From the NCBI RefSeq assembly GCF_031583145.1, contig NZ_CP134050.1, positions 30,001 through 94,000 on the forward strand: a DNA stretch of 64,000 bases, read 5' to 3'. The stretch's first letter is position 1. The number at the start of each line of letters is the position of its first letter. The notes below the pieces were generated by a model. It saw nothing but the letters and a program-made list of their open reading frames with translations. It did no database searches and had not been told where the DNA came from. The translations under genes and the position numbers were made by a program. This stretch comes from Brevibacillus brevis. GTDB taxonomy: Bacteria > Bacillota > Bacilli > Brevibacillales > Brevibacillaceae. Shown one piece after another: positions 41,873 through 53,872 of the stretch.

Positions 41873-42112
41873 TCAGTCTATGTACCTGATCGCCGCCAAA
41901 ATCATCCCTGCGATCACCACTTCTCCTTGCTCCACCTCCAGCCCGTCTGCATAGCCGCTCACAGGCGAGAGGATGTCCACCGACTTGCCTGCCTGATCCA
42001 GCGTGAAAAGCACTTCGCCCTCCTCCACCCGTCCCCCTGGAAGGAAGCGGATACGGGTGATCGTCCCAGCGATAGGGGATACGACGTCATACTTTAAAGC
42101 CAATCTGCTCAC
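41873..42112 (-). CDS. Biotinyl/lipoyl-domain-like small protein
   Basis: The 79-residue protein is a single biotinyl/lipoyl fold: SPIAGTITRIRFLPGGRVEEGEVLFTLD, then the turn QAGKSVDI, then SPVSGYADGLEVEQGEVV. The turn holds a Lys but not the AMKM motif of biotin carriers. A GTG start at 42112 overlaps the 3' end of the sigma-54 activator gene by 26 nt. It is the last gene of that transcript. Whether the lysine is modified is unknown. Confidence 0.7.
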   Translation of the reverse strand: MSRLALKYDVVSPIAGTITRIRFLPGGRVEEGEVLFTLDQAGKSVDILSPVSGYADGLEVEQGEVVIAGMILAAIRYID

Positions 42113-44225
42113 CCCGACTTAGTTTCTCTTGGATTTCCTGATACTTGCGGCTAATGGTGGACTGGCTGACACCCAGCATTTTGGCTGCCATGGAGGTCGT
42201 TTTATACTCGTCCATCGCCATCTTGATCAACTGCTCCTCCATTGCCCTCGTCGCTTCCTTCAGCGGCATGATCTTGGTCAGGCGCTGCTTCAAATACTGT
42301 TTCTTCCCTTTTTTCAGCAAAGGGGTGATGTGGTGAGCCTCAATCAAATCTTCGTCGGCGGTCACGACGAGCCGCTCGATGATGTTTTGCAGCTCGCGGA
42401 CGTTGCCCGGCCAGGAGTAGGACTCGAGCAAGTCCAGGGCGTCCTGGGACAGCTGCGCGTTCCGCTGGTACTTCTCGTTAAACGTTTGCAAAAAGTGGAG
42501 GCCGATCAGCGGGATGTCCTCGGGCCGGTCGCGCAGCGGTGGAATCGCGACGGGGATGACGTTCAGCCGGTAGTACAGGTCTTCGCGGAATGTACCCTCT
42601 TCCACCATTTTCTCGAGGTTCTTGTTGGTGGCGGCGATAATTTGCACATCGACCTCGACGACCTCCGAGCCCCCGACCGGGATGATCTCCCTCTCCTGCA
42701 GCACCCGCAGGAGCTTCACTTGAAGATTGAGCGGCATCTCGCCGATCTCGTCCAAAAACAGGACGCCTTTGTGCGCCATCCGGAAATATCCGGGCTTTCC
42801 GTTGGAATTCGCCCCGGTAAAGGCTCCTTTCTCGTAGCCGAACAGTTCGCTTTCCAGGAGCGTCTCGGGGATGGCCCCGCAGTTGACTTTGACGAACGGC
42901 TTGCTGCTGCGGGCCCCCAGCTCGTAGATCGTCCGGGCAAACACCTCTTTGCCCACCCCTGATTCTCCGGTCAACAGGACGGTCGAGGACGTGCCGGCGA
43001 TCTTGTGGATGTACTTCATCACTTTCTCGATCTGCTCGCTTGCGTAGATCAGCTGCCGGCTTTTGCCGTATTGTTTCTGGTCGCGCAGGTGCTCCAGTTC
43101 TTTTTTGTATTTTTCGGACATTTTTTTGGCCTGGAGCAGCTCTTCCTTCAGCAGCATCGTTTCGGTCACGTCGCGAAGAGCGATGACGATGCGCTCCAGC
43201 TTGCCCTTGTCGTCGAAAATGGGGTTGCCGACGGCCAAAACATTCTTGCCAGAGCGGCTTTCCTGGGTGACCGACACCTTGCGCTTGCGCTCGATCACCA
43301 TTTTTACGATAGCGGAGAAAAAAGTGCCCTCGTGCTCCAGCTCCATCAGGTTGAGGCCGATCAGCTGTTCTTTGTCGATCTCCCAGAAGTCCTTGATTAA
43401 ATTGCCGCTGTAGCGAAGCAAAACGCCGTTTTCATCCAGAACCAGGATCTCATCGTAGATGGAGGACAATATTCCTTGCAGGTCCGTATTCAAATTTTTG
43501 ACGTACGCCATCTCCATCGCCATTTTTTCAATAAACGGCAGGTCCTGGAGCACGATGATCGCTCCCGTGACGTTGCCGTGCTGGTTGCGGATCGGACCGA
43601 AGTCGGCAAGGACGCCGATGCGATCGTTGACGATGATGTGGTTGAGGATGGTCTCGCCGTGTTCTACGACCTTCAGGAACAGAGCCGGATCGAGCAATTC
43701 CCCCGCCCGCTGCCGCCGCAGTTCTTCCGGAGTGATGCGCATCATCCGCAGCACCTCGGAGCTGAAGTTTTCGATGCGCCCGTGCACGTCGGCGATGACG
43801 ATGCCCATCGGAATGGAATTGAGCAGCGAACGGATCCAGTCGGTATGGGACGATTGGCTCGTCAGCAAATAGTAGAGAATGTCTTCCCGATGAAGATATC
43901 CTTCTGTCTTGCCTTCCCGGTTCTGGATGACGACGACTTCCTCGCCGAATACTTTGAAAAAATCGAGCATGTCCGCTTCCTGCTGAAAAAACGTCAGGTT
44001 GGTGTGAAACGGCAGCTGCCGCACTTGCCGTTTGAGCCAGTCCGGATCGTCGAGGAACGGCATGATGTCGGTATTTCTTATGTAGGCAACGATGCTGCCG
44101 TCTTGCGTGGCATCCGTGACAAACACGTAACGCTCGTTGAACCGGGACATGATGTTCCATAAATCGTTGGCGGAAGATTCAAACGATACGGTATACGCTT
44201 TTCTGACAAGCCATTTTGAAGCCAT
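42087..44225 (-). CDS. Sigma-54-dependent activator with CBS and PAS domains
   Basis: The 712-residue enhancer-binding protein has an N-terminal CBS-like region (residues 1-125), two PAS domains (about 130-250 and 255-375), a coiled linker, an AAA+ domain (Walker A GESGVGKE, the sigma-54 contact GAFTGA, Walker B FLDEIGEM, RxDLYYRLNV) and a C-terminal helix-turn-helix (TSMAAKMLGVSQSTISRK). The organisation resembles the RocR/BkdR/PrdR group. It lies downstream of the aminotransferase genes and probably activates the four nearby -24/-12 promoters through the 35-bp dyads. The effector is unknown; a polyamine, GABA or semialdehyde is plausible. The start has GGGGAGG. Confidence 0.93.
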   Translation of the reverse strand: MASKWLVRKAYTVSFESSANDLWNIMSRFNERYVFVTDATQDGSIVAYIRNTDIMPFLDDPDWLKRQVRQLPFHTNLTFFQQEADMLDFFKVFGEEVVVIQNREGKTEGYLHREDILYYLLTSQSSHTDWIRSLLNSIPMGIVIADVHGRIENFSSEVLRMMRITPEELRRQRAGELLDPALFLKVVEHGETILNHIIVNDRIGVLADFGPIRNQHGNVTGAIIVLQDLPFIEKMAMEMAYVKNLNTDLQGILSSIYDEILVLDENGVLLRYSGNLIKDFWEIDKEQLIGLNLMELEHEGTFFSAIVKMVIERKRKVSVTQESRSGKNVLAVGNPIFDDKGKLERIVIALRDVTETMLLKEELLQAKKMSEKYKKELEHLRDQKQYGKSRQLIYASEQIEKVMKYIHKIAGTSSTVLLTGESGVGKEVFARTIYELGARSSKPFVKVNCGAIPETLLESELFGYEKGAFTGANSNGKPGYFRMAHKGVLFLDEIGEMPLNLQVKLLRVLQEREIIPVGGSEVVEVDVQIIAATNKNLEKMVEEGTFREDLYYRLNVIPVAIPPLRDRPEDIPLIGLHFLQTFNEKYQRNAQLSQDALDLLESYSWPGNVRELQNIIERLVVTADEDLIEAHHITPLLKKGKKQYLKQRLTKIMPLKEATRAMEEQLIKMAMDEYKTTSMAAKMLGVSQSTISRKYQEIQEKLSRGEQIGFKV

Positions 44226-44294
44226 AGGTCCTCCCCATGCTGACAGGATTGTTTCCTTTCATTATAAACGGGGCTTCGAAGGACGGGAAAGCGG

Positions 44295-44337: not shown

Positions 44338-47216
<2,879 letters not shown>

Positions 47217-47262: not shown

Positions 47263-47278
47263 AGCAAGTCTCGTGCCA
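47263..47278 (-). promoter_or_regulatory. Sigma-54 promoter of ALDH1-patA operon
   Basis: On the minus strand TGGCAC-GAGAC-TTGCT matches the -24/-12 consensus (TGGCAC-N5-TTGCW) fully, with GG and GC ten bases apart. It lies 47 nt before the ALDH1 start. Confidence 0.85.
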
Positions 47279-47331
47279 ACAGGGAAAGGAGGCTCTGCCT
47301 GCGATTTGGCATGAGCGATGCAGGGATGGGT

Positions 47332-47366
47332 TATTCAAAAAATCATAAATTATGCAAAAATGAATA
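47332..47366. promoter_or_regulatory. 35-bp enhancer dyad 1
   Basis: The layout is TATTC-AAAAA-ATCAT-AAATT-ATGCA-AAAAT-GAATA, with outer arms complementary and inner arms partly so. Its centre is about 97 bp upstream of the ALDH1 transcription start. It is a probable binding site for the sigma-54 activator encoded at 42087-44225. Confidence 0.75.
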
Positions 47367-47454
47367 ACTTTCATCTCGCGGATTCGGATGGGAAAACGTC
47401 TTACAGGGGAGAGGCACCGGCACGATCTAGCCTCCCGCGCATGGCGAATGCTGC

Positions 47455-47505
47455 GAAAAAAAACAGCTCTCCAGCGAAGCGAATGCACGCCAAGCGAGAG
47501 AGCTG
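47455..47505 (-). terminator. Terminator of the ALDH2-ureohydrolase operon
   Basis: On the minus strand CAGCTCTC / GAGAGCTG (stem at 47464-47505) is followed by eight T. Confidence 0.85.
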
Positions 47506-47577
47506 CAAATGGATGGTGTGTTTACATGTGCGATCCGGCCATCAGGACTGCGATCCGCATTGCTGCACCTGAAAGAT

Positions 47578-48516
47578 CTATGCCTGTTCCTTCACCTTCA
47601 ACGCTACCAAAGCTGAAAAGTCGTGAATCAGCGTGGCAGCCAGCAGTGCCGTAATCTGCGTCGGATCGTAAGGCGGCAGCACCTCTACCAGGTCGAAACC
47701 GATGTAGTTCATGCCGCTGAGGGAACGGATGATTTGAAGGGCTTCGTGACTGGTGAAGCCGCCGACCTCCAGCGTGCCGGTGCCGGGCGCGAAAGCCGGG
47801 TCGACGAAGTCGATGTCAAATGTCAAAAAGCAGGGCGTATCCCCAATCGTCGCTTTGATTTGCTTGACCACGTCGTCGATACCTCGGTTGCGCAGCTCCT
47901 GCGTCGTAATGACGTTGTAGCCCAGCTCATAGCTCGCCTCGAGGTCGCCGGGGTGGTTCAGCGTTCCACGGATGCCGACCTGGAACACCTTGTCCGGGAT
48001 GAGCAGCCCTTCCTCGTGGGCGCGGATGAATGGAGAGCCGTGCCAGTATTTCTCGTCGTAGTACGTATCCCACGTGTCCGTATGCGAATCGAACTGGATC
48101 AGCGCGACCTGTCCGTAAACCTTTTTGGCAGCCCGCAGCGACGCCAGCGTGATCGAGTGGTCGCCGCCAAGTCCAATGGGGACGATGCCTTTATTCATCA
48201 GATCGAGCATGGCTGCTTCCATCAGCTCGTAGCTGCGGTGGATGTTGTGCGGAATGACCGGCACGTCTCCGATGTCGATCGCGTTCGTGTCGTCAAACGG
48301 ATACACCTTGTGTGTCGGATGGTAGGGAAACAGCGTCATGGAGGCCTGGCGGATCGCCTGCGGGGCGAACCGGGCTCCTACGCGGAAGGAAGCCGCCGTG
48401 TCGAACGGCTGGCCAAGGATGGCCACCTTGGCGTTTTCCCTGCTGGAGGGCAGGCGCATGAACGTTCCCGTCGTACAAAATTCTGGTTTGACATCAGGTG
48501 TAAGTGGATATTGCAT
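47578..48516 (-). CDS. speB: Agmatinase-family ureohydrolase
   Basis: The 312-residue enzyme contains the manganese-binding motifs GGDHSI, DSHTDTW and DIDFVDPAFAPGTGT of the arginase/agmatinase family. It would release urea from agmatine to give putrescine; 4-guanidinobutyrate hydrolysis to GABA is the main alternative and would also fit the pathway. It is cotranscribed with ALDH2 (24-nt gap) from a sigma-54 promoter. The start has GGAGGATT. Confidence 0.88.
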   Translation of the reverse strand: MQYPLTPDVKPEFCTTGTFMRLPSSRENAKVAILGQPFDTAASFRVGARFAPQAIRQASMTLFPYHPTHKVYPFDDTNAIDIGDVPVIPHNIHRSYELMEAAMLDLMNKGIVPIGLGGDHSITLASLRAAKKVYGQVALIQFDSHTDTWDTYYDEKYWHGSPFIRAHEEGLLIPDKVFQVGIRGTLNHPGDLEASYELGYNVITTQELRNRGIDDVVKQIKATIGDTPCFLTFDIDFVDPAFAPGTGTLEVGGFTSHEALQIIRSLSGMNYIGFDLVEVLPPYDPTQITALLAATLIHDFSALVALKVKEQA

Positions 48517-48540
48517 GGTTAGTAATCCTCCGGTTTCGGT

Positions 48541-49965
48541 TTAGTTGCGGTTGAACACCACCAGTTTCATCTCGGTCATTTCCTCAACCGCGTATTTCAG
48601 GCCTTCCCGTCCGGTTCCGCTCTCCTTCACGCCGCCGTACGGCATGTGGTCGACGCGGAACGTGGGGATGTCATTGATCATCACGCCGCCGACGTGCAGC
48701 TGCTGGGCCGCCATCAGCGCCGTGTGGATATTGTCCGTGTAAATGCCCGCCTGCAGACCGTAGCGGGAGTCGTTGACGAGGGCAATGCCTTCGTCGACAG
48801 AGCCGATCTTGTTGATCAGGACGATCGGGGCGAAGACCTCCTGGCAGGAGACCTTCTGAGCCGGATCGACGTCGAGCAAAATCGTCGGCAGCAAAACGTT
48901 TCCTACTGCCTTGCCGCCCGTGATGACTTTGGCTCCGTGCTGCTTCGCTTCCTCGATCCAGGCGAGGGTGCGGTCCACGTCGGCAGGGGAAATCAAGGCG
49001 GACACATCCGTCTTCGGGTCGAGCGGATCGCCGGCTGTCAAACGGTTGGTCGCAGCCATGAACGCTTTTGCGAAATCTTCGTAGAGATCCTCGTGCACGT
49101 ATACGCGCTGGAGGGAGATGCACACCTGCCCCTGGAAGGCGAACGCTCCTTGGACGCAGCGGGGAATGATTTTCTGAATATCGACGCCTTTGTCTACGAT
49201 CAGCGCGGCGTTGGATCCGAGCTCCAGCGTGACGCGCTTCAGGCCAGCCTTGTTGCGAATGCCGATGCCGACCGCCGGGCTTCCGGTAAACGTGACCATC
49301 TGGACGCGCTCATCCGTGACGATCAAATCGCCAACAACGCGGCCGCTGCCTGTCACGACATTGAGCGCACCGGCCGGCAGTCCCGCTTCCTGCAGAAGCT
49401 CCGCCAGGAAAAAGGCGGACAGCGGCGTTTGGCCAGCCGGCTTCAGCACGATGGTGTTTCCGGCGGCGATGGCCGGGCCGACCTTGTGGGCGACGAGATT
49501 CATCGGAAAGTTGAAAGGCGTGATCGCGCCGATGACCCCGAGCGGCTCGCGCACTGTGTAGGCCACCCGATTTTCCCCGCCGGGCGCGGCGTCGAGCGGC
49601 AGCGTCTCACCGTGGATCCGTTTTGCTTCCTCCGCGGCAAACCGGTACGTCTGGACCGTCCGCGACACTTCCCCGCGCGCCGTCGCAATTGGCTTGGCCG
49701 CCTCGAGCGCGATGATGCGGGCGGCTTCCTCTCCTCGCACTTCCAGCAGGGATGCCAGCTTGCTTAGAATCTCTGCGCGGGCGTGCGCAGGGAGGGACTT
49801 CATTTTGCCTTGCGCAGCATAGGCAGCGGCGATGGCGGCATCCACTTCCTCCGGGGTCGCCGCGGGGATTTCCGCGATCACTTCTCCGCTGTAGGGAGAA
49901 GTCAATGTTGTGTAATGGCTTGCCTGCACCCATTCACCGTTTATAAACAGACTCTTTTTATCCAT
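48541..49965 (-). CDS. Aldehyde dehydrogenase, probably succinate-semialdehyde type
   Basis: The 474-residue enzyme has FNFPMNLVAHKVGPAIAAGN, LELGSNAALIV (Glu region) and GQVCISLQRVY (catalytic Cys). Its class resembles lactaldehyde/succinate-semialdehyde dehydrogenases with the CISLQR loop. In this cluster, after gabT, oxidation of succinate semialdehyde to succinate is the logical role. Substrate assignment is by context only. It has AAGGTG before ATG 49965. Confidence 0.85.
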   Translation of the reverse strand: MDKKSLFINGEWVQASHYTTLTSPYSGEVIAEIPAATPEEVDAAIAAAYAAQGKMKSLPAHARAEILSKLASLLEVRGEEAARIIALEAAKPIATARGEVSRTVQTYRFAAEEAKRIHGETLPLDAAPGGENRVAYTVREPLGVIGAITPFNFPMNLVAHKVGPAIAAGNTIVLKPAGQTPLSAFFLAELLQEAGLPAGALNVVTGSGRVVGDLIVTDERVQMVTFTGSPAVGIGIRNKAGLKRVTLELGSNAALIVDKGVDIQKIIPRCVQGAFAFQGQVCISLQRVYVHEDLYEDFAKAFMAATNRLTAGDPLDPKTDVSALISPADVDRTLAWIEEAKQHGAKVITGGKAVGNVLLPTILLDVDPAQKVSCQEVFAPIVLINKIGSVDEGIALVNDSRYGLQAGIYTDNIHTALMAAQQLHVGGVMINDIPTFRVDHMPYGGVKESGTGREGLKYAVEEMTEMKLVVFNRN

Positions 49966-50028
49966 GTGTGATCACCTTGTCTTTTCAAGTAATGTCTCGT
50001 CCGAAACTCGTCTGCCAAAAAGAGTGCC

Positions 50029-50103
50029 TTACGCCGAATGGGCGCGTGCCGGCAGCAAAATCATCGAGAGCAGGACGGCGATTAAGAACAGCTTGTTTTG
50101 CAT
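50029..50103 (-). CDS. 24-residue hydrophobic leader peptide
   Basis: Between the sigma-54 promoter and ALDH2 an ORF starts at ATG 50103 with GAGGTGG and codes MQNKLFLIAVLLSMILLPAR plus AHSA before TAA. It is one hydrophobic helix with a basic N-terminus, like a signal peptide or small membrane protein. It may be a regulatory leader or a small membrane protein. Confidence 0.5.
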   Translation of the reverse strand: MQNKLFLIAVLLSMILLPARAHSA

Positions 50104-50161
50104 ACAACCACCTCGTGTGCCCTTTCCATTGGAAGGCCAATCCTTCCTGTCCTCACATTAT

Positions 50162-50177
50162 TGCAAAAGTTATGCCA
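50162..50177 (-). promoter_or_regulatory. Sigma-54 promoter of ALDH2-speB operon
   Basis: On the minus strand TGGCAT-AACTT-TTGCA matches the -24/-12 consensus. It lies about 60 nt before the small ORF and 197 nt before ALDH2. Confidence 0.85.
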
Positions 50178-50217
50178 ATTTTGAAATCGTTTCCGGGTTG
50201 TCACTCCGGTGGTTCTC

Positions 50218-50252
50218 TATTCGATCTTGCATCAAATATGCAAAATTGAATA
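50218..50252. promoter_or_regulatory. 35-bp enhancer dyad 2
   Basis: TATTC-GATCT-TGCAT-CAAAT-ATGCA-AAATT-GAATA: both outer arms and both inner arms are perfectly complementary, all in 5-bp modules. The centre is about 85 bp upstream of the transcription start. This is the best copy of the three. Confidence 0.85.
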
Positions 50253-50263
50253 ACTTCCCGAAA

Positions 50264-50296
50264 GAAGAGAGCTGCCTCATGTCGGCAGCTCTCTTC
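50264..50296 (-). terminator. gabT terminator
   Basis: On the minus strand the stem GAAGAGAGCTGCC / GGCAGCTCTCTTC is followed by TTTC. Confidence 0.8.
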
Positions 50297-50318
50297 CGTA
50301 TTTCCCTCCTGGCCGGAG

Positions 50319-51665
50319 TTATGCCAGGTCGACAAAAACTTCTTCGATGATGTCCAGCGCCTCGGCCAGCTGCTCGTTCGTGATCACCAGGGGGCAGAGG
50401 ATGCGGATAACGTTTTTGAAAATGCCTGCGCTGAGCGTCACGACGCCACGCTGGTTGCAGGCCGCCACGATTTTGGCGGTCAGTTCATCAGCGGGTGCCT
50501 TGGTGGATCGATCCTTCACCAGCTCCACGGCAACCATCGCCCCCAGGGCACGTACATCGCCAATCGCCGCGTGCTTTTCCTGCATGGCCCGGAAGCGGGA
50601 GACGACAGTCGCGCCAATCAGGTTGGCCCGTTCCGGAAGGTTTTCCTCTTCCATCATTTCGATGACTTTCAGAGCCGCTACGCAGCCGAGCGGGCTGCCG
50701 CCATACGTTCCGCCGATCTGGCCGGGCTCCGGCGCGTCCATTATCTCCGCGCGCCCGGTTACGGCGCTGATCGGAAGGCCGGCCGCAATTGACTTGGACA
50801 TGGTCATCAGATCAGGCACGACGCCGAAATGCTCCATGGCAAACATTTTGCCTGTGCGGCCAAAGCCGGTCTGGATCTCGTCGGCGATGAACAGGATGCC
50901 GTGTTTTTCGCAGATCGCCTTCACGCCCTGCACGAAGGTCTTGGACGGGATGACGAAGCCGCCCTCGCCCTGCACCGGCTCCATGATGATCGCGGCCACT
51001 TCTTCCGCCGCCACTTCCACGAGGAAAAATTCCTCCAGCTTTTTCAATATCTCCCGGTCCAGCTCCTCGGACGACATGCCGTGCGGGGCTCGGTAATAGT
51101 ACGGATACTGCATTTTGTACACATCCGGAGCGAACGGGCCGAAGCCGTATTTGTAAGGCTTCACCTTGCTGGTCAGCGACATCCCCAGGAGGGTGCGGCC
51201 GTGGAAGCCCCGTTCAAAGGAAATGACCGCCTTGCGTCCCGTGTATTTGCGGGCGATTTTGATCGCGTTTTCCACCGCTTCAGCACCGCTGTTCAAGAAA
51301 AACGTCTTTTTCGGATGATTCCCGGGAGTGATCTGGTTCAGCTTTTCCGCAAGCGCTACGTAAGGCTCGTACATCATGACGTGGAAGCAAGGGTGAATGT
51401 ACTTGTCCAACTGTTCCTTGAGCGCTTCCACTACTTTAGGCGGACAGTGGCCCGCATTCAGAGTACCGATCGCGCCGGCAAAGTCAATGAACGTGTTGCC
51501 GTCGACATCGGTCAGCAGGGCGCCTTCTCCTTTGGCGGCAAAACTGGATACGGTCGTGAACGGACCGCGGGGAACGTGCTCTTCCTTTTTCGCCAGCAAG
51601 GCCTGCGCATTCGGCCCGGGGATCGGCGTCTGGATGTTGACATAGCTTCTTGTCGTGCTGCTCAT
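50319..51665 (-). CDS. gabT: 4-aminobutyrate aminotransferase
   Basis: The 448-residue class III transaminase has FLNSGAEAVENAIKIARKYTGR, FADEIQTGFGRTGKMFAMEH and the PLP lysine in TMSKSIAAGLP. The order of blocks and the GxFPxL-type middle (RGFHGRTLLGMSLTSK) match GabT. It converts GABA and 2-oxoglutarate to succinate semialdehyde and glutamate. ATG 51665 has GGAGGAG; a longer frame from 51704 starts before the transcript. It has its own sigma-54 promoter. Confidence 0.92.
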   Translation of the reverse strand: MSSTTRSYVNIQTPIPGPNAQALLAKKEEHVPRGPFTTVSSFAAKGEGALLTDVDGNTFIDFAGAIGTLNAGHCPPKVVEALKEQLDKYIHPCFHVMMYEPYVALAEKLNQITPGNHPKKTFFLNSGAEAVENAIKIARKYTGRKAVISFERGFHGRTLLGMSLTSKVKPYKYGFGPFAPDVYKMQYPYYYRAPHGMSSEELDREILKKLEEFFLVEVAAEEVAAIIMEPVQGEGGFVIPSKTFVQGVKAICEKHGILFIADEIQTGFGRTGKMFAMEHFGVVPDLMTMSKSIAAGLPISAVTGRAEIMDAPEPGQIGGTYGGSPLGCVAALKVIEMMEEENLPERANLIGATVVSRFRAMQEKHAAIGDVRALGAMVAVELVKDRSTKAPADELTAKIVAACNQRGVVTLSAGIFKNVIRILCPLVITNEQLAEALDIIEEVFVDLA

Positions 51666-51709
51666 CGAAATCTCTCCTCCCACTTTCTCTCTTTCCGCCG
51701 CCAAAATTT

Positions 51710-51725
51710 TGCAAGAAACATGCCA
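51710..51725 (-). promoter_or_regulatory. Sigma-54 promoter of gabT
   Basis: On the minus strand TGGCAT-GTTTC-TTGCA matches the consensus, 44 nt before the gabT start codon. Confidence 0.87.
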
Positions 51726-51789
51726 AGGCCGGATGTGGTACGGACTCGCTTCTGCGTAATCGCACGACCCACGGTGACCCGGACGCCGC

Positions 51790-51824
51790 TATTCATTTTT
51801 GGATAGTCTATGATTTTTTGAATA
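51790..51824. promoter_or_regulatory. 35-bp enhancer dyad 3, shared by divergent promoters
   Basis: TATTC-ATTTT-TGGAT-AGTCT-ATGAT-TTTTT-GAATA has the same modules as dyads 1 and 2. Its centre (51807) is almost the same distance, about 108 bp, from the gabT and the permease transcription starts. Confidence 0.78.
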
Positions 51825-51889: not shown

Positions 51890-51905
51890 TGGCACATCCC
51901 TTGCA
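51890..51905 (+). promoter_or_regulatory. Sigma-54 promoter of the permease gene
   Basis: TGGCAC-ATCCC-TTGCA is a full match to the -24/-12 consensus. It lies 222 nt before the permease start. Confidence 0.88.
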
Positions 51906-52087: not shown

Positions 52088-52126
52088 ACATACCGAGGTA
52101 AATTCTGACATAAAAGGGGATTGGTC

Positions 52127-53485
52127 ATGCACAAAAACGTGGAACAAGAACATTTTCCTACATTGAAAAGAAGCTTGAAGCTGTGGCAGGTCATCGTTCT
52201 GGGTTTGGGATATTTAACCCCTCTCACTGTTTTCGATACGTACGGAATCGTCACTCAGGAAACGAGCGGGCATGTTCCCACCGCCTACATTCTCGCGCTG
52301 GCAGCCATGCTGTTCACTGCCTCCAGCTACGGAAAAATGGTCAAAGTCTTCCCTGTCGCCGGGTCTGCGTACTCCTACGCCCGCCAGACGATTAATCCGC
52401 ATCTCGGTTTTTTGGTCGGCTGGGTGTCCCTCCTCGACTATGTATTCCTGCCGATCATCAATGTGCTGCTCGGAAAAATCTACTTGGCAGCCATGTTTCC
52501 CTCCGTTCCGGACTGGCTTCTCGGCATTCTGCTCGCGGCCGTGACGACTGCCGTCAATCTCCGCGGGATCGGATCGACCGCCAACTTCAACACGTGGCTC
52601 GTCGTCTTCCAGGTGCTGGTCGTCGGTATTTTCACTTGTTTGGCTATCCAGCATCTGTCGGGAGCCGCCACAACCGCCAACCCGTTTCCCATCACTCCGT
52701 TTTACGGGGAAGGAATATCGTTCCCGACGCTTCTGTCCGGGGCCGCGATTCTCTGTTTTTCCTTTCTCGGATTTGACGCGGTCACGACCTATACAGAAGA
52801 AGCGATCGACCCGATGAAAACCATTCCGCGGGGCATTTTTCTGGTCGCTCTGATCGGGGGCGTCATCTTCATCACCGCTTCCTATTTCACCCAGCTGGCT
52901 TTTCCCGACATCACCCGCTTCCAAAATTCCGATTCGCCTTCACCGGAAATGTCGATGATCCTGGGCGGTGACCTGTTCCACACGGTGTTCGTCGCCGGAA
53001 GCATCACCGCAGCTCTCGCATCCGGAGTCGCGTCGCACACGAGCGCTTCCCGCCTGCTGTTCGCCATGGGAAGGGAAAATGTTCTGCCGCAAAAGCTGTT
53101 TGGGCGGCTGCATCCGACCAGAGGCATTCCCGTAGGCAATGTTCTTTTCATCGGGGCGATTTCCCTGTCCGCGTTGTTCCTCGACCTGGAAACGGCGCTC
53201 GCCTTCATCAATTTCGGCGCACTGACCGCCTTTACCGCCGTCAACGTGTCGGTCTTCGCACACTATTACATTCGAAAGAAGCAGCGTTCTCTGAAGGACA
53301 CGCTCTCGTATGTCATCTCCCCGTTGATTGGGGCCAGCTTCGTCGCTTTTCTGTGGTTCAATCTCGACAGTCAGGCGCTGACGCTCGGCATCGTCTGGAC
53401 ACTCGTCGGGATCGGGTATTTGCTCGTCACGACCAAAGGCTTCCGCAAACGGCCGCCAGTGATCGAGTACGAGGATGCGATTTGA
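52127..53485 (+). CDS. APC superfamily amino acid/polyamine permease
   Basis: The 452-residue protein has twelve membrane segments and the APC beginning KLWQVIVLGLGYLTPLTVFDTYGIVTQ, the conserved SFLGFDAVTTYTEEAIDPMKTIPRGI block after helix 5, and GRENVLPQKLFGRLHPTRGIPVGNV. It resembles PuuP-type putrescine importers. It is divergent from gabT and shares its enhancer, so uptake of a pathway substrate (putrescine or GABA) is likely. The start follows AAAGGGGA. Confidence 0.9.
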   Translation: MHKNVEQEHFPTLKRSLKLWQVIVLGLGYLTPLTVFDTYGIVTQETSGHVPTAYILALAAMLFTASSYGKMVKVFPVAGSAYSYARQTINPHLGFLVGWVSLLDYVFLPIINVLLGKIYLAAMFPSVPDWLLGILLAAVTTAVNLRGIGSTANFNTWLVVFQVLVVGIFTCLAIQHLSGAATTANPFPITPFYGEGISFPTLLSGAAILCFSFLGFDAVTTYTEEAIDPMKTIPRGIFLVALIGGVIFITASYFTQLAFPDITRFQNSDSPSPEMSMILGGDLFHTVFVAGSITAALASGVASHTSASRLLFAMGRENVLPQKLFGRLHPTRGIPVGNVLFIGAISLSALFLDLETALAFINFGALTAFTAVNVSVFAHYYIRKKQRSLKDTLSYVISPLIGASFVAFLWFNLDSQALTLGIVWTLVGIGYLLVTTKGFRKRPPVIEYEDAI

Positions 53486-53510: not shown

Positions 53511-53526
53511 TGGTATCATTTTTGCA
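53511..53526 (+). promoter_or_regulatory. Sigma-54-like promoter before the DUF3055-like gene
   Basis: TGGTAT-CATTT-TTGCA keeps the essential GG and GC with N10 between them, with one mismatch in the -24 box. An inverted repeat ATTCGC-AC-GCGAAT lies at 53487-53500. Confidence 0.6.
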
Positions 53527-53578: not shown

Positions 53579-53872
53579 ATGGCATTTGACTACCTGTACG
53601 ATCAATCGGAAAACATCCTGTCCCGCTACGTCGCGTTTGCCACAGAACATACGCGCTATGACCTGGGACTGTTCTACTCCCAGCATTTTGACGGCAAAAG
53701 CTTTGTGGTTTCCCTGCAAAACATGCAGTCCATCCTCATTTCCTCCGATGACATTGGCTACGACCACGGCTGGGTCGAGAGGCTGGGTGTGCGTGCGGAA
53801 GATGTGGACGTCGTCTCCAGTTTTTTGAAAAGGACGCTCACTTCCTTGTTCAACAATCACGACCTGGATTAA
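53579..53872 (+). CDS. DUF3055-like protein
   Basis: The 97-residue acidic protein resembles the DUF3055 family of Firmicutes (FDYLYDQSENILSRYVAF, then YDLGLFYSQHFDGKSFVVSLQ, then FLKRTLTSL at the end). ATG 53579 has AAGAGGTGAG. The function is unknown. It follows the permease and probably has a sigma-54 promoter, so it may belong to the polyamine regulon. Confidence 0.72.
   Translation: MAFDYLYDQSENILSRYVAFATEHTRYDLGLFYSQHFDGKSFVVSLQNMQSILISSDDIGYDHGWVERLGVRAEDVDVVSSFLKRTLTSLFNNHDLD

Follow-up and report, generated by a model that had tools for sequence, protein, structure and literature searches.

Three short elements in a 64,000-nucleotide stretch of the Brevibacillus brevis contig NZ_CP134050.1 (hereafter the window; the whole genome measures 6.23 Mb) lie upstream of sigma-54 (−24/−12) promoters of genes for a probable polyamine breakdown route, close to the gene of a sigma-54 activator with an N-terminal CBS-PAS-PAS arrangement. 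We propose, with a probability of about 0.87, that each element is an upstream activating sequence (UAS) composed of two palindromes, to which dimers of this activator would bind and from which they would loop to the sigma-54 polymerase, the inducing signal being derived from polyamines and perceived through the N-terminal domains. The elements themselves are real, conserved, and very likely functional, and the best reading of their sequence is a 16-base pair (bp) palindrome, TATKCA-N4-TGMATA, used twice. The elements, the promoters, and the activator gene are listed below, with ALDH standing for aldehyde dehydrogenase, HTH for helix-turn-helix, and gap for the distance between the two palindromes (modules).

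47332..47366, candidate enhancer 1, modules 47332-47347 and 47351-47366 with a gap of 3 bp, assigned to the ALDH1-patA operon
50218..50252, candidate enhancer 2, modules 50218-50233 and 50237-50252, assigned to the ALDH2-speB operon
51790..51824, candidate enhancer 3, modules 51790-51805 and 51809-51824, between the divergent gabT and permease promoters
47263..47278, minus strand, −24/−12 promoter of ALDH1-patA, TGGCACGAGACTTGC
50162..50177, minus strand, −24/−12 promoter of ALDH2-speB, TGGCATAACTTTTGC
51710..51725, minus strand, −24/−12 promoter of gabT, TGGCATGTTTCTTGC
51890..51905, plus strand, −24/−12 promoter of the APC permease gene, TGGCACATCCCTTGC
42087..44225, minus strand, CBS-PAS-PAS-AAA+-HTH sigma-54 activator of 712 residues containing GAFTGA, the proposed dyad binder

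The initial annotation of this DNA had described the elements as 35-bp dyads with the layout TATTC-N5-TGNAT-N5-ATGNA-N5-GAATA. Scanning the window with this pattern (at most three mismatches) returned exactly the three places it had given, each on both strands (six matches with 0–3 mismatches), whereas 100 dinucleotide-preserving shuffles gave a chance expectation of 0.02 on average and 1 at most. The inner left arm of the first copy is ATCAT, as had been stated, and in the third copy ATGAT stands in place of ATGNA. Recast as TATKCA-N4-TGMATA, N3, TATKCA-N4-TGMATA, the pattern consists of two 16-bp palindromes whose centres are 19 bp apart and whose N4 spacers are A/T-rich.

Conservation was examined in loci encoding orthologs of the activator. 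Full-length orthologs, 78–93% identical, were present in 11 other genomes among the 39 family genomes searched, which makes 12 close loci with the window included. A further 22 distant loci comprise all those found at an E-value of 1e-170 or better among 398 class genomes (part of a larger group), minus the close loci and genome G022 (G and L numbers are our handles for genomes and loci); their activators are about 48–74% identical to that of the window. A pair of modules (gap of 2–4 bp, at most 4 of 24 positions mismatched) accompanied by a −24/−12 element at 60–220 bp was found in all 12 close loci. Pairs were likewise present in 22/22 distant loci, in 20 of them with a recognised promoter at this distance. 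Among 80 control loci of other sigma-54 activators, collected by a profile search with the activator alignment that matched mainly in the AAA+ domain, only three had a pair, one of them with a promoter. Loci with a speB or patA relative and no activator at E 1e-170 had no pair (0/6), the patA relatives of G033 and G031 being only 60% and 51% identical. The consensus, the gap of 3, and the threshold had been fixed before loci L193–L210 were examined (L049–L052 had been seen beforehand), and with these settings 12 of the 18 loci were recovered versus 1 of the 80 controls; those missed (L193, L194, L198, L199, L201, and L202) have a gap of 4 or 2. Markov-shuffled distant loci contained 0.0 gap-3 pairs per 20 kb (4 mismatches) versus 1.07 in the real ones. 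The initial annotation had staked its proposal on conservation in orthologous intergenic regions, and the sites are indeed conserved in both close and distant activator loci.

Two further cases concern the activator outside these sets. Ten plasmid records matched it, of which two were examined. In one, the independent case of Priestia megaterium plasmid NZ_CP085417.1, an activator 48% identical to ours lies beside gabT and a succinate-semialdehyde dehydrogenase gene, and gap-3 pairs stand, by arithmetic, about 82 bp from the gabT −12 and about 104 bp from the permease −12. Locus L048 (G022:C2) encodes an activator fragment (residues 172–710, 89% identical) that looks like a remnant; its surroundings, over 16 kb, contain neither a polyamine cluster gene nor a pair.

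The same loci define the geometry of the unit. When single modules were counted (at most one mismatch, inner spacers 1 to 8 compared), an inner spacer of 4 accounted for 38 modules in the close loci (every other spacer, 3 at most), 71 in the distant loci (13 at most), and 29 in the control loci, where other spacers gave 8–18. Pairs with at most 4 of 24 mismatches were counted over gaps of 0 to 12: in the close loci, 25 pairs had gap 3 and no other gap exceeded 4 pairs, and the distant loci had 22 at gap 3, 19 at gap 4, and at most 5 elsewhere, with 3 sites at gap 2. The inner spacer is rigid at 4, and the gap between modules is mostly 3 or 4 and sometimes 2, so that module centres are 18–20 bp apart. 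A stronger distal module was also considered and set aside, as no clear difference was seen (distal better in 35, proximal in 27, equal in 7; n = 69).

The cluster has four −24/−12 elements; the one belonging to the permease gene (51890-51905) was absent from the initial annotation, as was the place of the third dyad between two divergent −24/−12 promoters. From dyad centre to predicted transcription start, distances are −97 (ALDH1), −84 (ALDH2-speB), −108 (gabT), and −109 (permease). The 85–110 bp announced at the outset therefore hold for this measure and not from dyad edge to −24 element, which by arithmetic amounts to 53, 40, 64, and 65 bp, respectively. Measured, again by arithmetic, to the far end of either divergent promoter, enhancer 3 is 97–98 bp away. 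Across the 12 close loci, which include the window, the ALDH1 dyad keeps a position of −96 to −98 in 11, the exception being L047, where its promoter was not recognised. The dyad of the speB operon stands at −83 to −87 in seven loci (the window, L037–L041, and L043) and at −116 in L042. Equal spacing to two divergent promoters was rejected as a conserved rule, the speB/permease dyads of L038–L040 standing at 83/146, 84/147, and 86/210 bp. The promoter expression also matches 47307-47322 and 53511-53526, both on the plus strand, and no pair lies upstream of either (best 11 and 12 mismatches).

To evaluate helical phasing, 69 site-promoter pairs, which represent 59 distinct sites, were collapsed by genus and into 4-bp bins; in some of these pairs the promoter may not be the one that the site serves. 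At distances up to 135 bp (n = 37), R reached 0.60 for a period of 10.65 bp, and none of 3000 uniform random sets was as good. The gap-3 distances of the distant loci alone (n = 18) gave their best R, 0.73, at 11.1 bp (1/5000), and 0.55 at 10.5 bp. These values support the placement of the sites on a fixed helix face relative to the polymerase, which the activator would thus face.

A genome-wide scan with the 35-bp pattern, which the initial annotation had called for, recovered a fourth copy outside the cluster that was missing from that annotation. This next-best match (C1:5539094-5539128, L005:9095-9129; two mismatches) precedes a group of three genes (MerR-type, Amidohydro_3, and APC permease, in this order), with a −24/−12 element TGGCACACGCCATGCA at the usual distance and the dyad at −97. 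Further matches, at three mismatches, were C1:5690752 and C1:5944047. The counterpart of the fourth site in G017 (L092) has MerR-like and amidohydrolase-like genes and an equal centre-to-−12 distance of 83 bp. In a scan of 79 genomes (gap-3 pattern, at most three mismatches), 28 contained a match, versus two, with one match each, for the reversed pattern used as a control. Matches were also seen in G046 and G051 (unexplained) and in G072, where the match is 76 bp from another activator match.

The protein proposed to read these sites has the features of a sigma-54 enhancer-binding protein. Its AAA+ sigma-54 interaction domain scores 242.7 bits (PF00158; cut-off 20.2) and GAFTGA is present in the translation; its C-terminus carries a Fis/TyrR-type HTH (PF18024; 33.3 bits, cut-off 27); a sigma-54 gene is present in the genome, and −24/−12 promoters lie downstream of the sites. 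For the CBS domain (PF00571), the score is 23.3 in the whole protein, just below the cut-off of 24, and 25.4 in the N-terminal 240 residues, and 14 of 21 orthologous N-termini match it, with one repeat each. In a predicted model of the N-terminal part (mean predicted local distance difference test score [pLDDT] 78.4, 21 sequences, domains read from secondary structure), two beta-alpha-beta-beta-alpha units at 12-57 and 78-122 precede a PAS domain at 140-228, a predicted arrangement that corresponds to a tandem CBS fold. Domain searches and model support CBS-PAS-PAS-AAA+-HTH for the product of this adjacent gene, whose CBS-PAS-PAS part had first been read from the sequence. Identity with PrdR was rejected (NF041552, 456.7 bits for a cut-off of 795). 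In the window, autoregulation through the patA operon is doubtful: patA is separated from the activator gene by an inverted repeat (GGAAAAGAAGAC/GTCTTCTTTTCC) and by a TATAAT near 44263, two features found by eye that the repeat scan does not list. Elsewhere, in L050 (7136), L195 (11229), L198 (11150), and L199 (7468), a gap-4 pair unaccompanied by any recognised −24/−12 element is located 50–85 bp ahead of the activator gene, which makes autoregulation possible in that genus.

Members of the sigma-54 activator family bind upstream as dimers and build an AAA+ hexamer. Brought to the sigma-54 closed complex by looping of the DNA, the hexamer remodels it with energy from ATP hydrolysis. Applied to the window, each 16-bp module would be bound by one HTH dimer of the 42087-44225 activator, giving two dimers per enhancer; these neighbours would nucleate the AAA+ hexamer, which would loop to the sigma-54 polymerase at −24/−12 and open the promoter by hydrolysing ATP. 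The PAS or CBS domains at the N-terminus would sense a metabolite of the polyamine pathway as the trigger. A single activator would in this way turn on the uptake of agmatine and putrescine and their breakdown to succinate, together with the remote MerR/amidohydrolase/permease group. Binding, stoichiometry, looping, and inducer are what we infer here. Taken together, conservation, co-occurrence, geometry, and phasing make it very probable that the activator binds the sites as two dimers, and conservation and co-occurrence lend support to the assignment made at the outset, namely that the elements would be enhancers of the adjacent activator for sigma-54-dependent polyamine and 4-aminobutyrate (GABA) genes.

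Could the dyads belong instead to another regulator, such as a MerR or GntR protein or a second sigma-54 activator, that is merely co-conserved with the cluster? The remote fourth site does precede a MerR-type gene, and ATTCA/TGAAT half-sites of a similar kind also serve other activators in the genus. Nevertheless, the sites track the activator gene (34/34 loci) and not the metabolic genes (0/6), the Priestia plasmid activator keeps similar sites next to gabT and the succinate-semialdehyde dehydrogenase gene, and no MerR gene was noticed in the list of open reading frames of the window cluster, a list that was not scanned for MerR. We therefore consider another regulator quite unlikely. A purely structural role, as curved DNA or hairpins, would fit the A/T-rich N4 spacers and is very improbable, given the conservation of the half-site letters and their variation from one activator to another; besides, the inverted repeats resembling terminators near 50264-50298 and 47467-47505, which were recognised by eye and which the repeat scan does not list, fall outside the dyads.

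A different question is whether the unit is a single 35-bp dyad with 5-bp modules at half-turn spacing, as initially described. Read in the better orientation of each, all three window copies fit that description within 0–2 mismatches, and the close loci have predominantly gap 3. As a general unit it was nonetheless dropped, because gaps of 2 and 4 occur beside orthologous activators, with the inner spacer still at 4; other activators, moreover, pair 16-bp modules at gaps of 3–5. The strict 35-bp unit thus has little likelihood in our estimation.

Several observations weigh against binding of paired palindromes by the CBS-PAS-PAS activator. Among the 26 family genomes without a full or partial ortholog, nine match the gap-3 pattern, seven of them beside another activator, and the matches in G011, G027, and a second place in G019 are unexplained. 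Two activator-bearing genomes, G030 (four matches) and G034 (two), also match away from the cluster (L089 and L090 among these). The pairs of L194 and L204 have no promoter matching the expression used, and gaps of 2 and 4 were admitted only after gap 3 had missed 6 of 18 loci. The activator of a second Priestia plasmid (L251; 45% identical over residues 135–698), beside aspA, an amidase gene, and a permease gene, has no pair at up to four mismatches (best 5, gap 4), and may be a paralog. The gabT-adjacent activators of L053–L055, whose last 500 residues are about 50% identical, have no such pair either; they fall below the E threshold and were left out of the ortholog count. Phasing is weaker without an upper distance limit (n = 44, R = 0.51, best period 11.3 bp, 1/3000), and collapsing by genus and 4-bp bin removes the shared ancestry of the loci only in part.

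The genes of the cluster are arranged, on the minus strand, as gabT, ALDH2-speB, ALDH1-patA, and the activator gene, with the APC permease gene on the plus strand.

44338..45708, minus strand, putrescine aminotransferase, patA type (NF008570, 761.3 bits, cut-off 612)
45744..47216, minus strand, aldehyde dehydrogenase 1, probably 4-aminobutanal dehydrogenase (start placed by eye, downstream of the promoter; substrate from context)
47578..48516, minus strand, agmatinase, speB type (TIGR01230, 213 bits, cut-off 174.3)
48541..49965, minus strand, aldehyde dehydrogenase 2, probably succinate-semialdehyde dehydrogenase (substrate from context)
50319..51665, minus strand, 4-aminobutyrate transaminase, gabT (start placed by eye; NF005376, 689.4 bits, cut-off 676)
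52121..53485, plus strand, APC-family amino acid/amine permease

The agmatine-putrescine-GABA-succinate route first proposed for the cluster holds for patA, speB, and gabT, which pass their NCBIfam cut-offs. The two aldehyde dehydrogenases are below the cut-off for all of the best 25 NCBIfam families listed for each, and their substrates, hence their place in the route, were deduced from context because no listed family passes. Behind the permease gene, the −24/−12-like sequence TGGTATCATTTTTGC at 53511-53526 (plus strand) precedes a SAV0927-family gene (53579-53872), with no pair within 300 bp. The G017 counterpart of this gene has a half-degenerate pair (L037:14269-14303; five mismatches) at −97, and on the first Priestia plasmid (L250) a SAV0927 gene lies between the permease and activator genes.

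Similar frames with other letters, likewise absent from the initial annotation, occur near other activators. Seven genomes contain GATTCA-N4-TGAATA-N3-TATTCA-N4-TGAATC or a near copy no more than 50 bp away from a match to another sigma-54 activator. GATTCA-type pairs, with a third module nearby, stand directly behind another activator gene in L060–L062, L064, L065, L069, L072, and L093, loci of seven other genomes of the genus; in L093 (G005), a single-PAS activator (weak PAS score) adjoins a gabT-like gene and the pairs read GATTCA-N4-TGAATA. Among the six loci that have a speB or patA relative and lack the CBS-PAS-PAS activator, three (L244, L245, and L246, in G024, G007, and G008) possess a sigma-54 speB-ALDH1 operon whose TTCTCA/TGAGAA modules are separated by 4 bp, an apparent replacement of the regulator, to judge from pairs that were aligned by eye and are partly degenerate, with a perfect module only in the G007 locus. 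The window genome itself has 14 scored sigma-54 activators, of which four besides the main one were examined: L084 has a palindrome pair with similar half-sites before a −24/−12 element, the sole pair in L088 is a dissimilar one, rich in G/C, and no palindrome pair before −24/−12 was seen in L086 or L087. TATTC/GAATA palindrome pairs with gaps of 5 and 4 bp lie upstream of −24/−12 elements in L084 (C1:1460337-1460373) and L085 (C1:4831126-4831161), respectively; the genes behind them resemble, by eye, those of binding proteins, and the L084 pair is directly behind another activator match.

These cases suggest, tentatively and with somewhat less than even odds, that PAS-type sigma-54 activators of Bacilli share a rigid enhancer frame of two 16-bp 6-N4-6 palindromes, 2–5 bp apart and in helical phase with the promoter, in which only the half-site letters differ. 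The variants seen are TATKCA (CBS-PAS-PAS activator), GATTCA (single-PAS activator), CATTCA, TTCTCA, and TATTC. When paired 6-Ns-6 palindromes were counted at 91 promoters of 96 loci, 10 had a spacer of 4 (all with gaps of 3–5), at most 5 had any other spacer, and shuffled sequences gave 0.8. Against such a frame, 4 of these 10 pairs sit in loci chosen by the pattern (L084, L085, and L089–L093, as opposed to L053–L055, L114, L145, and L249), and the unbiased excess is therefore small.

For Brevibacillus and its relatives, the analysis yields a polyamine and GABA breakdown regulon that is concrete and testable, with an activator architecture combining a CBS pair and two PAS domains. If the constant frame of paired palindromes with activator-specific letters is true, sigma-54 regulons of Bacilli would be predictable from sequence, and, were it general, activators could be exchanged over an operon by rewriting the half-site letters inside the fixed frame. 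Helical phasing over about six turns is in addition a testable claim on the formation of short sigma-54 loops.

This type of switch is known. Our literature search, which reached few subscription papers, found no paper joining Brevibacillus, sigma-54, and putrescine, and no description of the CBS-PAS-PAS activator or of its DNA code. The related literature, available to us in part, covers GabR, SoxR, a sigma-54 survey of Bacillus thuringiensis, a Clostridiales regulon paper, and a comparison of sigma-54 regulons (PMC4279683, PMC3162934, PMC12316311, PMC4941409, PMC4428206, PMC6615313, PMC7017808). SoxR of B. thuringiensis is, in the available text, a sigma-54 activator with a single site for two promoters, but this site, AAAATATTTTTTACAAATAAAAATATTTT, consists of an 11-bp inverted repeat with a 7-bp separation, unlike the window dyads (PMC4941409). 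RocR of Bacillus subtilis, compared here by description and not by site letters, is a PAS-type sigma-54 activator of dispersed operons for amino acid breakdown, with two promoters able to depend on a single region (a point cited in the consulted portion of PMC4941409), although it acts on arginine catabolism. AguQ of Clostridium has a predicted sigma-54 agmatine regulon, and in the Clostridiales study that describes it, 32 of the orthologous groups are reported to have multiple UAS sites; however, the AguQ targets given in the accessible part are aguDA, aguBC, and aguQT, and not agmatinase or putrescine aminotransferase genes, a comparison that does not extend to motif letters (PMC6615313).

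The closest characterised system, by analogy, is GabR of B. thuringiensis, a sigma-54 activator adjoining gabT as in the window, with a different domain make-up. According to the sections available (PMC4279683), its 96-bp footprint upstream of gabT contains a 21-bp inverted repeat, and expression falls sharply when the first repeat is deleted; it is induced by GABA or succinic semialdehyde, is restrained by its PAS domain, and is expressed from a promoter that is not of the sigma-54 type. Two pattern scans for the gabT promoter of B. thuringiensis, with letters taken from the available text (PMC4279683, PMC4428206), gave no B. thuringiensis locus, the second giving one match with three mismatches (L213). 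GabR has a single PAS domain and a mass of about 57 kDa, whereas the window activator has 712 residues, with a CBS pair and two PAS domains; and gabT is the sole GabR target described in the portion of that paper available, whereas the window activator would serve several operons, a comparison made by description and not by site letters (PMC4279683).

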